Part shown: positions 5,413 through 59,393 of the stretch, in pieces
Layout: each line of letters starts with the position of its first letter
How positions within the stretch are numbered: position 1 is the first letter of the stretch
Origin: Corynebacterium afermentans subsp. afermentans
Lineage (GTDB): Bacteria; Actinomycetota; Actinomycetes; Mycobacteriales; Mycobacteriaceae
DNA: 64,000 nucleotides
Assembly (NCBI RefSeq): GCF_030408355.1
Contig: NZ_CP046606.1
Location: forward strand, 1,426,001-1,490,000
Reading direction: 5' to 3'
Position numbers and translations under genes: made by a program
The notes under the pieces: model-generated
The model's input: the letters and a program-made list of their open reading frames with translations, nothing else
Told to the model about the DNA's origin: nothing
Database searches by the model: none

Positions 5413-5440
5413 CTACACTGCCCCCTCCCCATATCCCAAA

Positions 5441-5502
5441 TCCAGCTACTAAGACCCAGCTATTCGGCCCTGAGGGGCGAATAGCTGGATCCTGATAGCT
5501 GG
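5441..5502. repeat. nested inverted repeat downstream of bioN
   Basis: Inner arms CCAGCTATTCG (5456-5466) and CGAATAGCTGG (5478-5488) are perfect 11-bp complements whose loop can pair further. Outer arms TCCAGCTA (5441-5448) and TAGCTGGA (5495-5502) enclose them and repeat the same core. The element lies in the 214-bp gap between the convergent genes bioN and pspA. It may be a terminator, although a T-run is missing. Confidence 0.6.
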
Positions 5503-5558
5503 AAACGCCTGGAAGAAGCCGTGGAAGGTTGCGCTCGCACTCTGCTATAGAACGACGC

Positions 5559-27195: not shown

Positions 27196-28089
27196 ATGAA
27201 CGATCCCCTCGCCACTTCCGGAATCGTCGTCGTGGACAAGCCCGCTGGCATGACCAGCCACGACGTTGTCGCACGCCTGCGCCGCTTCTTCGGCACCCGC
27301 AAAGTCGGCCACGCAGGCACGCTCGACCCCATGGCAACCGGTGTCCTGGTGGCGGGCATCGAGCGCGGCACGAAGCTTCTGGCCCACCTCGTGGCCGAGG
27401 ACAAGGTGTACGAAACCACCATCCGCCTGGGCGCGTCGACGACAACGGATGATGCCGAAGGCGCAACCGTCGATACGCATGATGCTTCCGGGGTCACAGA
27501 TGAGGCGATCCGCGCTGAGGTGGCAAAGCTGACCGGCACGATCATGCAGGTGCCGTCGAAGGTGTCCGCGATCAAGATCGACGGGCGGCGCGCGCATGAG
27601 CTCGTGCGCGCCGGCGAGGAGGTGGACATCCCCGCGCGCGAGGTGACCATCCACGCCTTCGACCTCGGCGAGATCCGCCGCGACGGCGAGTTCGTGGACG
27701 TCGACGCGCGCGTGCACTGCTCTTCCGGCACCTACATCCGCTCGCTCGGGCGCGACCTGGGTGCTGCCTTAGGTGTCGGGGGGCATTTGATTGCCTTACG
27801 ACGCGCCCGTGTCGGCGCATTCTCCCTCACCGATGCACGCACCCTGGAGCAGCTCGAGAATTCCGCCGAGCTGTCGCTGAGCCTGGACGACGCCTTGATT
27901 CGCGTGTGGCCGGTCCTCAACGTGACAGCAGACGAATACGACGCCCTGGCCATGGGCAAGTGGCTGGAGCCGCGCGGGCTCAAGGGCGTCCACGCGGCGG
28001 TGGGTCCGGATGGGCGCGCGGTGGCGCTTGTGAAGGAGAAGGGCAAACGCCTCGCCACAGTGTTCGTCGCACGCCCCTCGACGCTGTAG
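27196..28089 (+). CDS. truB: tRNA pseudouridine(55) synthase TruB
   Basis: Makes pseudouridine 55 in the T-loop of tRNAs. It has 297 residues; VVVDKPAGMTSHDVVARLRR at residues 10-29 and KVGHAGTLDPMATGVL near residue 37 carry the catalytic aspartate. The C-terminal extension with LALSLDD-like acidic and PUA-like sequence is typical of actinobacterial TruB. The ATG is preceded by a -10 box and no Shine-Dalgarno. It is divergent from ribF and convergent with pptT; a G-rich/palindromic intergenic stretch follows. Confidence 0.96.
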   Translation: MNDPLATSGIVVVDKPAGMTSHDVVARLRRFFGTRKVGHAGTLDPMATGVLVAGIERGTKLLAHLVAEDKVYETTIRLGASTTTDDAEGATVDTHDASGVTDEAIRAEVAKLTGTIMQVPSKVSAIKIDGRRAHELVRAGEEVDIPAREVTIHAFDLGEIRRDGEFVDVDARVHCSSGTYIRSLGRDLGAALGVGGHLIALRRARVGAFSLTDARTLEQLENSAELSLSLDDALIRVWPVLNVTADEYDALAMGKWLEPRGLKGVHAAVGPDGRAVALVKEKGKRLATVFVARPSTL

Positions 28090-28129: not shown

Positions 28130-28140
28130 TCGGTGCACAA

Positions 28141-28205
28141 ACCCTGGGATCGAGAGCCTGGGTTCGCGCAAAAATCGGCGGATCCCTGGGTCTAGATCCC
28201 AGGGT
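28141..28205. repeat. 65-bp palindromic element, intergenic copy
   Basis: Bounded by ACCCTGGGA and TCCCAGGGT; in this copy the inverted ends extend to 13 bp (28139-28207). The core contains CAAAAATCGGCGGAT. A second copy of the same 65-bp length and internal spacing lies on the other strand at 44600-44664. It lies between the convergent truB and pptT and may terminate either. Confidence 0.85.
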
Positions 28206-28246
28206 TTGCGCGAGGAGGTGTCAGCCTTCGATCCTGCGCACGGGAG

Positions 28247-28912
28247 CTACCGCACGTAGGTGGCGGTGACCACGTAGTTGCAGCGCTCGATCCAGCGGCC
28301 CTCGAACAACGGCACTGGGGCGGGCCGCGCCAACAGCTGGGAGGTGAAGGACCCGTCGGTGCGCAGCTCGATTTCGGCCTCGTCGAAGTCCAGCCAGCGC
28401 CGGGTCATCGGATACCAGCACTTGTAGGTGGCTTCCTTGGCGCAAAACAGCAGCCGATCCGCCCAGGTGTAGCCGTCGGTCTGCAGTCTTTGCACCATCG
28501 CTATCTCGGTTTCGCTGGCGATGGAGCGCAGCACCCCGTCCGGAAGCGGCTCTGCCGGCTCCGCGTCCATGCCCATGGAGTGCACGTGGCGGGTGGAGGC
28601 AGCCACGGCTGCGCGGAGCCCGTCGGTATGCGTGAGAGAGCCGGTGAACCCCTCGGGCCACAGCGGCATGCCCCTTTCCCCTCGCAGGATGGCCCCGGCA
28701 GATTCCACGCCGAGTTCACGCAGCGCCTGGTGCGCGCACCAGCGAGCGTCGCCGAACTCGCCTTTGCGCACGTCCACGGCGGCGCTGACCTCATTACGCT
28801 CGTCGGGGTGCAGGTCCTCGTAGCGGGTCAGGTCGACGGTGTCGGTCGAGTCGTCGGCGAGGTAAAACACGCAACGTGCTTCGGGAGGGAACAGCGCAAC
28901 GTCTTGCATCAC
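28247..28912 (-). CDS. pptT: 4'-phosphopantetheinyl transferase PptT
   Basis: Sfp-type transferase that moves phosphopantetheine from CoA onto carrier proteins, needed in mycolate-producing bacteria for FAS-I, Pks13 and nonribosomal synthesis. It has 221 residues. Motifs are GSLTHTDG near residue 91, GMDAEPAEPLPDGV near 113 (Mg ligand Asp) and FCAKEATYKCWYP near 156. The start is GTG (28912) or the adjacent ATG (28909); both overlap the stop of the upstream phosphoesterase gene. The pairing matches the mycobacterial PptT-PptH unit. Confidence 0.93.
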   Translation of the reverse strand: MMQDVALFPPEARCVFYLADDSTDTVDLTRYEDLHPDERNEVSAAVDVRKGEFGDARWCAHQALRELGVESAGAILRGERGMPLWPEGFTGSLTHTDGLRAAVAASTRHVHSMGMDAEPAEPLPDGVLRSIASETEIAMVQRLQTDGYTWADRLLFCAKEATYKCWYPMTRRWLDFDEAEIELRTDGSFTSQLLARPAPVPLFEGRWIERCNYVVTATYVR

Positions 28913-41809: not shown

Positions 41810-42703
41810 TTAACTCGCCGCCTTCTCCACCATCTCCGCTAACGCGAGAAGCCGGCGCACATCGGTCACAAACTCATCTTCTCTGAACAGCAAATCGACC
41901 GGAGACGGGCGAAGTAGCTTGACGCCTGCCTTCAGCAGGTTCTTTTCACGGCGACGTTCTTTCCGCAGCGTCTCGTCGGTTGGTTTGAACGTCACTCCGT
42001 CGTATTTGTAGTCGCCGTCTATCTCCGTGACGAACATCCCGCGGCGAAGATCCACCTCATAGCCGACGAACATGCCGTTGACGATCCAGTGCTCTGCCAC
42101 CCGCTCGATCAGAATCGCTCTTCCGTAGGACTCGAACGGCGAGCGCGAGTTGTGCACCGCGAACTTCACTACTTTCCGCAGCGTGTCAATCCCTCGCACC
42201 CTGCCCAGCTTCTCCATCTCGGCCTCGACCATGTCCCTGTCCGCGTGGAACTTCAGTATCCAGTCCATGGCGACGAGCCCCTCCCTGAAGCCATGTCGCA
42301 GCGCGATTTCGAACGCCGTCGTCAGTTCATCCGTGGCACGCAGCGTGTCGAAGTGCCGGATTGTCGCTGACCGTCTCCTTGCCCGGTGATAGACCGTGTT
42401 CGCCGGCTGCTGTTTCTTCGGCGGCGCTTTGCCGTTTGGCAGGATGAGTTCCACTGGCTCGTTCGGGTCGGTCGTCACCACCCACATATCCAACGCTCGT
42501 GCTGCTGATCGCCCAGCCAGAGCCGCTTTCCTGGCAGCTTTTCCTGCAGCGATGGCCTGGATCCATCGCTTCTCAAAGAACGCGAGCTCATCAAAGTCGG
42601 CTCTCAGCATGCAGTGCTTCGATGACAGAATCACTGCACCTGTATTGTTCGTATACCGACGGCGTAACTTACGTACTATTTCTGTTTGTCTCCCCCGATC
42701 CAT
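41810..42703 (-). CDS. AbiEi-like / DUF559-type protein
   Basis: A 297-residue actinobacterial protein resembling orphan AbiEi-type (type IV toxin-antitoxin) proteins fused to a DUF559/Vsr-like domain. ALAGRSAARALDMWVV (about residues 60-75) and GFREGLVAMDWILK near residue 149 match the AbiEi-like part. The C-terminal ITEIDGDYKYDG-like segment, then LRKERRREKNLLKAG, fits a restriction-endonuclease-like E-x-D-x-K core. No AbiEii toxin gene is adjacent. The ATG at 42703 is preferred to a TTG eight codons upstream. It is lower in GC than its neighbours, suggesting transfer. Its role is unknown. Confidence 0.65.
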   Translation of the reverse strand: MDRGRQTEIVRKLRRRYTNNTGAVILSSKHCMLRADFDELAFFEKRWIQAIAAGKAARKAALAGRSAARALDMWVVTTDPNEPVELILPNGKAPPKKQQPANTVYHRARRRSATIRHFDTLRATDELTTAFEIALRHGFREGLVAMDWILKFHADRDMVEAEMEKLGRVRGIDTLRKVVKFAVHNSRSPFESYGRAILIERVAEHWIVNGMFVGYEVDLRRGMFVTEIDGDYKYDGVTFKPTDETLRKERRREKNLLKAGVKLLRPSPVDLLFREDEFVTDVRRLLALAEMVEKAAS

Positions 42704-42811
42704 GCCGCGATCCTGACAGAGGTTCAAGCGAAAAGGAAGAGCGTTTGCTCTTCTGTGGACAACTCACCGGCGGAGTTATCCACAGCTGACGTTCTTGGGA
42801 ACCTACCCGCC

Positions 42812-42947: not shown

Positions 42948-43685
42948 ATGACCACATCTTCCACCATCGACACCGCCCGCACCCTCCTCACCGACGCCTC
43001 GCACATCGAGGTCTTCACCGGCGCCGGCATGAGCGCGGACAGCGGCATCGCCACCTACCGCGACGCCCAGACCGGCCTGTGGGAGAACGTGGACCCGCAG
43101 GACATGGCGTCCATCGACGCGTGGCACAACGACCCGGACACCATGTTCGCCTGGTACCTCTGGCGCGCCCACCTCGCGCAGCAGGCGGAGCCGAACGCGG
43201 GCCACGTTGCCGTCGCTAAGTCGCCGAAGACGACGGTGACCACCCAAAACATCGACAACCTCCACGAACGCGCAGGCAGCAAAGAGGTTGTCCACCTGCA
43301 CGGTTCGCTGTTCGACTTTCGCTGCTCGCTTTGCGACGAAAACTTCGCCCAGCCCATCGACCTCCCCAAAGAACCCGTGGAGGCAATCACTCCCCCGGCC
43401 TGCCCGGTCTGCGGTGGCTCCGTGCGCCCAGGGGTGGTCTGGTTCGGCGAGGCCCTGCCCCAGGCCGAGTGGAAAGAGGCGGAGCGCCGCATGCGCACCG
43501 CGGACGCGCTGGTGATCGTGGGCACGTCCGGGGTGGTCTACCCCGCCGCCGGCCTGCCGCTGATGGCGCACGTCCGCGAGATCCCCATCATCGAGGTCAC
43601 CCCGATGCGCACGGACCTGTCCCACCTGGCCGACGTGGTCATCGAAGACACCGCCGCCAACGCACTGCCTGCCCTTTTGGGCTAG
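42948..43685 (+). CDS. cobB: NAD-dependent protein deacylase (sirtuin)
   Basis: Removes acyl groups from protein lysines using NAD. It has 245 residues: GAGMSADSGIATYRD (25-39) and TQNIDNLHERAG (99-110) line the NAD site, H118 (LHGS) is catalytic, and C126, C129, C152 and C155 bind zinc. Tyr70 and Arg73 in YLWR correspond to the acyl-pocket pair of class III sirtuins, so desuccinylase as well as deacetylase activity is likely. It is leaderless: TACCGT (42935-42940) lies seven bases before the ATG. Two palindromes upstream suggest dedicated regulation. Confidence 0.93.
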   Translation: MTTSSTIDTARTLLTDASHIEVFTGAGMSADSGIATYRDAQTGLWENVDPQDMASIDAWHNDPDTMFAWYLWRAHLAQQAEPNAGHVAVAKSPKTTVTTQNIDNLHERAGSKEVVHLHGSLFDFRCSLCDENFAQPIDLPKEPVEAITPPACPVCGGSVRPGVVWFGEALPQAEWKEAERRMRTADALVIVGTSGVVYPAAGLPLMAHVREIPIIEVTPMRTDLSHLADVVIEDTAANALPALLG

Positions 43686-44755
43686 CGCGTAGCCCGGAGC
43701 ACCGTGAAGGTTGTATTCCGCGCGACCTGCTCCACGGATGCGAATCTGCGCTCCACCTCGCCGCGGTAACGCAGGTGGGAGTTGTGCACCACATACAGCG
43801 CACCGCCGGGTGCGAGTAGGCGCACGGAGGCGTCAAGGAGGTGCTGCACGAGGGTGGCGTCGACGGTGGTGCCGTCGTGGAACGGCGGGTTCAGCGCAAT
43901 CGTGTCGAAGGACGCATCCGGCAGGCGTGAGCCGGCGTCGTCCCACGTCGCCTCCAGCCCAATGGCGCGCGCGGAGAGTACCGCGTCTGCGTCCGCGTCC
44001 GTGGCCACGCCGCCCATCCCCCGGGTGACCGAGCCGTTGCCGCAGCCCAGATCGAGCAGGCGGCCAGGCTCAGCCGGCAGGCAGGAGCGAAGCAGCTCCC
44101 CGCCCCGGTCCGGCTTCGCGCCGGAGAAGACACCGCCGACGGCGACCAGGCCGTCGCCAAGCAATGGCGCATAGGCCACCTCCCGCGGGCCGGAGGCGAC
44201 GAGGCAACGGAACTTGCCGCGGCCAAGCGAGGCTGCGACGTCGGTGAATGATTCGCCCAGCACCGTGTTCATGCTGCGTGCGAGGTGCTTGTTGTTCGCA
44301 CCTAACACGACCCGCACGTCGTCGAAACCCGCGCCCGCGATGGAGCGCGCCAGGTAGTCGAGCCGGGCGAGCGACTTGGGCATCTCCCCGACCGCGACCG
44401 CGGAACCGGTTGCGCCGGCCAAGAACTCGTCGAGCCGCACATCACCGGCGATCTCGACGCCCATTGCCGACGCCTCTTGGCTTCGCGCGTAGTCCGAGTC
44501 CAAGAACAGCACCGGCGCGCCCGTCGCCACCGCGGCGCGGGTGAGGTCCAGCGTCGGGTCGTGGCAGATGAGCACCGCCTGCCGGTCCCCCTCCCCCAGA
44601 CCCTGGGAACTAGAGCCTGTCATCGGCCGATTTTTGCCAGCCCCCAGGGTTTGGCTCCCAGGGTATGCAGAAGCGGCGGGCTCGACGGAGGCGACGCCCC
44701 CGAACGCCGTGTCCCCGAACGCGACGTCCCAGATCAAGCTATCCAGCGTGCGCAA
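43682..44755 (-). CDS. RsmC-like class I methyltransferase with in-frame element insertion
   Basis: SAM-dependent methyltransferase of 357 residues resembling the RsmC/RlmG group that methylates guanine in rRNA. The C-terminal catalytic domain has LLDLGCGNGSVTRG (SAM loop, near residue 232) and the N-P-P-F motif in IALNPPFHDG near residue 288. The N-terminal half is a degenerate methyltransferase-like domain. Residues 31-52 are encoded by the 65-bp palindromic element, with the frame kept open. The start is TTG at 44755, overlapping cobA by 17 bp; translation from an ATG within the element (44623) is possible. Confidence 0.82.
   Translation of the reverse strand: MRTLDSLIWDVAFGDTAFGGVASVEPAASAYPGSQTLGAGKNRPMTGSSSQGLGEGDRQAVLICHDPTLDLTRAAVATGAPVLFLDSDYARSQEASAMGVEIAGDVRLDEFLAGATGSAVAVGEMPKSLARLDYLARSIAGAGFDDVRVVLGANNKHLARSMNTVLGESFTDVAASLGRGKFRCLVASGPREVAYAPLLGDGLVAVGGVFSGAKPDRGGELLRSCLPAEPGRLLDLGCGNGSVTRGMGGVATDADADAVLSARAIGLEATWDDAGSRLPDASFDTIALNPPFHDGTTVDATLVQHLLDASVRLLAPGGALYVVHNSHLRYRGEVERRFASVEQVARNTTFTVLRATR
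44600..44664. repeat. 65-bp palindromic element, in-gene copy
   Basis: Inverted relative to the copy at 28141. It has the same 65-bp length, the same ACCCTGGGA/TCCCAGGGT ends, the 11-base core GCCGATTTTTG and the TCTAG block, all at identical spacing. The variable positions differ freely, as expected of an older dispersed family. It lies inside the methyltransferase reading frame. Confidence 0.85.
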
Positions 44756-45479
44756 GGCCTGCGACCTCCCCCACCACGTACACGGCCGGCGCCGCGACGC
44801 TCTCGGCCTCCATCACGTCGGCCAAGCTCGCCGCGGTGGCGAAGTACACCCGCTGCGCGTCCGTCTCGCCCTCCTGGATAACGGCGGAGGGCGTCGCACC
44901 ATCCAAACCGGCCTCCACCAGCGCCGCCGTGATGGCGCGCACGTTGCGCACGCCCATCACCACCACGATCGTCCCGCCGACGCGAGCCAGCGCGCCCCAG
45001 TCCACCAGCGACTTTTCGTGTCCCGGAGATAGGTGCCCGGACACCACCGTGAACGCGTGGGTGACTCCGCGCTGGGTCACCGGCACCGAAGCGGCGGCCG
45101 GGACCGACACCGCCGAGGTCACGCCCGGCACCACCGAACACTCCAGCCCAGCGGAAGCGCACGCCTGCAGCTCCTCGAAGCCGCGCCCGAATACGTACGG
45201 GTCGCCACCTTTGAGCCGCACGACGTGCTTGCCGGCGCGCCCATAGGCAACCAGCATCTCGTTGATGCGCTCCTGCGCCACCTGCCTCGCGTACGGCAGC
45301 TTCGCCACGTCCACGACTTCCTTGCCGGTTAAGTCCAAAAAGCTCTCCAGCTCAGCGGCGGGGCCGAGGTGGTCGGCGAGGATGACGTCGGCAGCCTCGA
45401 GCGCGCGCAATCCGCGGATAGTCAGCAGATCCCACGCGCCTGGGCCGCCGCCTACGAGTGTGATGTGGCCGGTAGTCAT
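44739..45479 (-). CDS. cobA: uroporphyrinogen-III C-methyltransferase
   Basis: Methylates uroporphyrinogen III at C2 and C7 to give precorrin-2, the branch point to siroheme and corrinoids. It has 246 residues: ITLVGGGPGAWDLLTIRG (6-23), VVRLKGGDPYVFGRG near residue 85 and VVPGVTSAVSVPA near residue 115, all family signatures. It lacks the CysG dehydrogenase/chelatase half. The ATG at 45479 is preceded by TAAACT eight bases upstream (leaderless). The methyltransferase gene overlaps its end. Confidence 0.94.
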   Translation of the reverse strand: MTTGHITLVGGGPGAWDLLTIRGLRALEAADVILADHLGPAAELESFLDLTGKEVVDVAKLPYARQVAQERINEMLVAYGRAGKHVVRLKGGDPYVFGRGFEELQACASAGLECSVVPGVTSAVSVPAAASVPVTQRGVTHAFTVVSGHLSPGHEKSLVDWGALARVGGTIVVVMGVRNVRAITAALVEAGLDGATPSAVIQEGETDAQRVYFATAASLADVMEAESVAAPAVYVVGEVAGLAHAG

Positions 45480-45487
45480 AGCCAATC

Positions 45488-59322: not shown

Positions 59323-59393
59323 CAGACCCAGAGCAAGAGACCCCTAGTATGGCCCTATTTTGGGCATACTAGGGGTCCTGTACTGGGGGTCTG
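59323..59393. repeat. nested inverted repeat upstream of the rlmN 3' end
   Basis: Inner arms GACCCCTAGTATG (59339-59351) and CATACTAGGGGTC (59365-59377) are perfect 13-bp complements. Outer arms CAGACCC (59323-59329) and GGGTCTG (59387-59393) enclose them. It lies between convergent DUF2631 and rlmN genes. The layout, an inner hairpin with short outer arms, resembles the elements at 5441 and 24632, though the sequences differ. Confidence 0.8.

Follow-up and report, generated by a model that had tools for sequence, protein, structure and literature searches.

Why would a gene for an RsmC/RlmG-like methyltransferase carry, within its reading frame, a palindromic sequence that also lies between genes elsewhere on the same stretch of DNA? 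This question is raised by a window of 64,000 nucleotides (the whole stretch of DNA that was analysed) from Corynebacterium afermentans subsp. afermentans, in which a preliminary description, made from the sequence alone, had noticed two copies of a 65-bp palindromic element. Both copies were found where they had been placed, and the pattern given for them, allowing up to 3 mismatches, had 2 matches in the window, both exact (0 mismatches); 100 shuffled sequences gave 0.00 on average. The element is palindromic as described, and its unit is 71 bp long, not 65, with the ends CARACCCTGGGA...TCCCAGGGTYTG. One copy (28138-28208, plus strand) lies between the convergent truB gene (27196-28089, plus strand) and a phosphopantetheinyl transferase gene (28247-28912, minus strand); the other (44597-44667, minus strand) lies in frame in the methyltransferase gene (43682..44755, minus strand; MTS domain PF05175; TTG start at 44755, overlapping the upstream gene). 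On balance, we lean towards the view that the insert is a nested palindrome that is mobile and stands here alone, as a solo copy; nucleases would mobilise or copy it in trans, and their DUF559 genes are themselves enclosed by such palindromes.

Each unit is a nested palindrome, in which a word, CCCTGGG in both window copies, stands in an outer and an inner arm and the inverted repeat of both follows across a core such as CAAAAATCGGC. The predicted fold is a long interrupted hairpin, with z-scores on the two strands of -7.63 and -7.04 for the intergenic copy and of -3.87 and -3.84 for the one within the methyltransferase gene. From several genomes and word groups, 36 copies of 71 nt without gaps were selected; changes on both sides were present at 23 of their 30 palindrome pairs (0 of 500 shuffles), and pairing amounted to 84.5%, against 46.6 or 49.2% when the partner was slid by one column. 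Additionally, one variable base was identical across all four half-sites in 32 of these copies. The comparison of the window with Rfam gave no match at gathering thresholds.

The coding of the element in frame and without a stop codon stood as described, with its extent corrected from residues 31-52 to residues 30-53 of 357, as counted by hand from the coordinates. Matches to the methyltransferase were found in 50 of 242 genomes of the genus, five of them reaching residue 1. When named genomes were searched with this protein, the relatives found included C. sp. MSK008, C. wankanglinii, C. haemomassiliense and C. mucifaciens. An orthologue set of 30 loci was assembled, 29 of which could be read by an N-terminal motif (genome G019 was left out). 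Five of these carry the element (G000, the present genome, and G095, G187, G052 and G079; 346-357 aa) and 24 are without it (315-325 aa). Because it is in frame in the five and absent from the 24, we regard the element as a read-through insertion and not as part of a conserved domain. The N-terminal segment [LM]R[TSA]LDxLI, common to all 29, is the same segment by which they were read, and it partly overlaps the upstream gene, so that some of its conservation is forced by the overlap alone. Compared with G154 and G091, G079 has one 81-bp block, holding the element, between GCTGA(G/C) and GG(T/C)GGTCA. Within the element, G000 and G095 differ by two bases, with no difference in the protein there.

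The insert would be translated as a Gly/Ser/Pro-rich linker and is apparently neutral. An in-frame ATG inside the element makes a later start possible in G000, G095, G187 and G052; the element of G079 has no ATG, and there is a TTG near its end. In the predicted structure the insert falls within a stretch of residues 16-56 with a predicted local distance difference test score (pLDDT) below 50, between a helix (3-17) and a strand (60-65), and is modelled as a disordered linker; the model is poor overall (mean pLDDT 68.1), and only the position of the low-confidence stretch was used. The methyltransferase copies lie in open reading frames (ORFs) whose third-position GC is at least 0.79 on both sides. 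By this filter, applied without a gene caller so that rare cases may remain, no other copy was convincingly in frame in a gene. Two candidates were set aside by eye, one at 327586 of G079, which passes the filter (0.80/0.80) in ORFs that look low-complexity and non-coding, and one at 1681340 of G000, where the likely gene start lies after the element. Tolerance of the element inside proteins, proposed earlier as a trait of the family, was thus seen at one locus.

The five carriers do not form one clade in a methyltransferase tree built without the insert (approximately unbiased test, p 0.0011), for which 21 of the 29 rows were used, the other 8 having been missed by the anchor pattern. Carrier G052 groups with G236 and carrier G187 with G091 and G154, and these three partners are without the element. 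In a comparison of short, hand-picked linker pieces with three arms of the element, the linker of G116 was similar to the right arm: of 2000 shuffles, 4, 7 and 57 did as well; the likeness was weaker for G236 (21, 146 and 268) and was not found for G154 (123, 1104 and 1777). Because of the likeness in G116, loss is favoured, and the sequences would then reflect one old insertion with several later losses; the alternative history is repeated gain or exchange of the element. Target duplications, which the preliminary description had proposed to look for, came down to a possible 3-bp GAG repeat at a single site.

The expectation that the element belongs to a dispersed family was borne out in the complete genome (a single contig of 2,375,453 bp), where the same pattern had 6 matches and the reversed pattern 0. 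A covariance model built from 8 copies recovers those 8 by construction, giving 8 clear copies in the genome, and found 6 further diverged or interrupted places of 71-77 bases at E < 0.001. At E 0.01 the model matched 17 of the 242 genomes. Copies of the CAAACC word group were recognised by eye in eight of these 17, and the others inspected held different nested palindromes; on this ground the matches in G167, G055, G073, G022, G076 and G032 were rejected as family copies. An unguided palindrome scan of 464 kb of the present genome (the window and 20 further stretches) gave about 10 such elements with several words, judged by eye from 98 peaks. Several copies are interrupted by foreign sequence resembling insertion-sequence ends, and foreign sequence or a short remnant lies inside palindromes at G000:C1:1662724-1664540, 1185296, 1505608 and 2041126 and at loci L160 and L172, as if the palindromes attracted insertions.

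In G095 and G079, pairs of copies about 1.1 kb apart enclose a gene of DUF559, a Pfam family of unknown function. A family search of the 17 genomes, which were those matching the palindrome model and not a random sample of the genus, gave 63 DUF559 places. By a plain palindrome score, a same-word pair stood on both sides at 26 of these, against 11 of 5000 random positions; a gapped comparison, with limits widened after the first result, gave 31 of 63 against 11 of 4000. The random controls came from G000 only, and in the second control all 11 positions come from one pair, on the two sides of the DUF559 gene at 1732303 of G000. Across the 464 kb, the sole same-word pair that was scored flanks a DUF559 gene. 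The centres of the 31 pairs are 1110-1225 bases apart in 23 cases, 1001-1265 in three and 1929-2104 in five. The earlier view of a small non-autonomous repeat was therefore incomplete, as DUF559 nuclease genes have palindromes built in the same way on their two sides. In the CCCCTAG cassettes L183, L185, L186 and L207, the palindromes are about 2.1 kb apart and the downstream one lies at least about 700 bases past the DUF559 gene. At L188 and L214 (G073) and L189 (G055), distant Corynebacterium DUF559 genes are flanked by palindromes of quite different make-up.

The palindrome words broadly agree with the relationships of the proteins. When the 63 proteins were placed in a tree, the pair label was strongly clustered (8 changes against 21 in shuffles), a result to which near-copies contribute, and by eye the words map to clades (ATGGTGAA; GTCGAGTA; CCAGCGAA; ACCGGCTACC; CCAGCTA). 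One larger clade, again by eye, spans the words CCCTG.., CCATGAG and a mixed CCCCTAG/CCAGGAG, and several DUF559 clades are without pairs. Among solo copies of exactly 71 nt, the only ones counted, four of the five in G079 outside its cassette have CCATGAG, as the cassette does, and the one with CCCTGGG is the methyltransferase copy; CCATGAG was found in 0 of 52 from seven other genomes. Beside an M20 peptidase gene, where 12 of 16 loci were examined and 2 of these were unreadable, there are cassettes in G095 and G079, a solo CCCTGGG palindrome in G000 and a solo CCAGCTA palindrome in G154. At the same locus G032 (L300, downstream) has a loose palindrome of about 100 bp with yet another word, and in G187, G091, G052, G116 and G236 no palindrome peak reaches 19 at a distance of up to 600 bases from the peptidase stop.

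The DUF559 protein of the cassettes has a predicted two-part fold, with an AbiEi-like N-terminal half and a catalytic half like Vsr and I-Bth0305I, the latter fold being that of homing endonucleases. The system would consist of cassettes (a palindrome, a DUF559 nuclease gene and a palindrome of the same word) alongside solo palindromes. The half resembling AbiEi antitoxins would bind the repeated word at the four half-sites, the catalytic half would nick or cut at the palindrome, and new or homologous sites would then receive a copy, of the palindrome alone or of the entire cassette, by repair or strand transfer. In the RsmC-like protein, a copy whose length keeps the frame would have come to lie after the first helix and before the first strand, and has probably been trimmed or lost several times since.

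Some observations weigh against this mobilisation in trans. The link between solo copies and a cassette of the same word comes mainly from one genome. Moreover, solo CCCTGGG copies are found in G000, G187, G052, G091 and G154 with no same-word cassette detected in them, the only CCCTGGG cassette detected being in G095. Both points slightly lower the odds that we give to it. Since none of the four DUF559 genes detected in the present genome has the CCCTGGG word, its CCCTGGG copies may now be fossils.

The same evidence bears on other explanations. If the flanking palindromes were merely regulatory, an AbiEi-like protein would control its own gene by binding the inverted repeats on either side of it, and the copies dispersed elsewhere would be a regulon or old debris. 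The AbiEi-like half of the DUF559 protein suits this explanation, as does the binding of inverted repeats in their own promoter by AbiEi antitoxins (PMC7319586). However, the palindromes stand at similar distances before and after the gene, a solo copy lies between convergent genes, and the methyltransferase copy is a true insertion, missing from 24 of 29 orthologues, all of which make a purely regulatory role improbable. We also think it unlikely that a transposase of an ordinary insertion sequence, or some unknown enzyme, moves the palindrome as a miniature element, with the DUF559 genes as passengers that landed at palindromes. Such an element could account for the insertion-sequence-end-like sequence that interrupts several copies, for the ISL3 transposase gene adjoining one copy in G079 and for CCCTGGG copies in genomes without a matching cassette; passengers, however, would not be expected to keep their own words, as DUF559 clades largely do, nor would the sole same-word pair in 464 kb be expected at a DUF559 gene.

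That the extra residues are an ordinary variable linker, palindromic by chance, is hardly credible: the linker does vary in length among orthologues and is modelled as disordered, whereas its DNA matches intergenic copies over 71 bp, with 0 expected by chance, and G079 differs from G154 and G091 by a single 81-bp block that holds the element. Finally, the logic of a palindrome-flanked gene with dispersed copies would be shared by a REP/REPtron system, in which a RAYT (Y1 tyrosine transposase) is the enzyme that moves the palindromes (PMC3733652), but such a system is very improbable here, since Y1_Tnp (PF01797) was found in 0 of 9 genomes at E 0.001, with control matches in 5 of 14 genomes, and the flanked gene has a different fold.

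The mobile nested palindrome preferred here nevertheless has its closest known counterpart, by analogy, in REP/RAYT systems (REPtrons and TIRtrons; PMC3733652 and PMC8266576), where palindromes likewise flank an enzyme gene and occur as dispersed solos. Enzyme and palindrome are reported there to co-evolve, and some TIRtrons have double-palindromic terminal repeats (same sources). The element may work like a solo REP. The enzyme of those systems is an HUH tyrosine transposase, in contrast to the predicted AbiEi-like and Vsr-like nuclease here, and the units here, unlike REP, are nested palindromes of 71-73 bp with a repeated word. By eye, no GTAG/CGTC tag stands at the ends of the CCCTGGG copies, and GTAG occurs inside some other words. 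The element was not assigned to REP/RAYT because the Y1 transposase was searched for and not found. The likeness to Rickettsia palindromic elements, drawn in the preliminary description, holds as an analogy for a palindromic element inserted in frame and translated. Those elements measure about 150 bp and nearly half of them lie in genes (PMC10969869), whereas here, compared by description only, the unit is 71 bp, one gene is convincing and palindromes of the same architecture stand at nuclease genes. Homing endonucleases of the I-Bth0305I/Vsr fold differ in that palindromes here are on both sides of the gene and dispersed, and AbiEi antitoxins (type IV toxin-antitoxin) in that the AbiEi-like half is joined here to a nuclease domain.

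Pairs were also found beyond the genus, among loci that represent best-scoring domains and not a census. In the same order, a same-word pair was recognised at 6 of the 30 best-scoring DUF559 loci, from 101 genomes with a match, against 0 of 600 in the shuffled control; the centres lay 0.96-1.12 kb apart in five of these 6. In a sample of the phylum, 27 further loci gave 3 pairs (against 1 of 540 in the control); the spacing of the centres was 1.03 kb in one and 1.24 kb in another, and the remaining pair resembles parS sites. Altogether, the observations suggest that these bacteria have a kind of mobile DNA not recognised before. More tentatively, and at somewhat less than even odds, it may be a class across Actinobacteria whose nested palindromes, both in cassettes and as solos, are spread by their own nuclease, a palindrome-binding enzyme that is AbiEi-like in part and of the Vsr/homing type. 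Such a class would be a convergent counterpart of REP/RAYT with an unrelated enzyme, in which word and protein have co-diverged into many pairs. The titles and abstracts of the best literature matches, a scope outside which subscription papers and preprints lie, held neither a link between DUF559 and palindromes nor this Corynebacterium family; some texts mention both terms. Stem-loop families of C. diphtheriae have been catalogued (PMC2267715). If many DUF559 clades have a palindrome linked to them, their proteins would gain a substrate that can be tested, one class of the dispersed palindromes in these bacteria would have an explanation, and numerous naturally occurring combinations of a nuclease and its DNA word would become available. 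At the methyltransferase locus, nature has run an experiment in which a mobile palindrome turns into protein sequence.

Other features of the window touch on the same subjects. The methyltransferase gene is overlapped at its start by the 3' end of the gene upstream of it, which encodes a cobA-type uroporphyrinogen-III C-methyltransferase (44739..45485, minus strand). Two genes downstream of the methyltransferase gene, the ORF 41810..42727 (minus strand) encodes a protein distantly related to the DUF559 proteins of the cassettes (phmmer E 9.5e-16, on part of the protein in L075), with no Pfam match at E 0.01 and no adjacent palindrome among the 12 best of the window. The palindrome scan also gave two lone nested palindromes, one with a word of the CCCAGAG/CCCCTAG group, close to a gene for a radical-SAM (RlmN-like) protein (59323..59393), and one with the word CCAGCTA (5437..5507), a word that also stands beside DUF559 genes of G187 (on one side), G154, G052 and G116.
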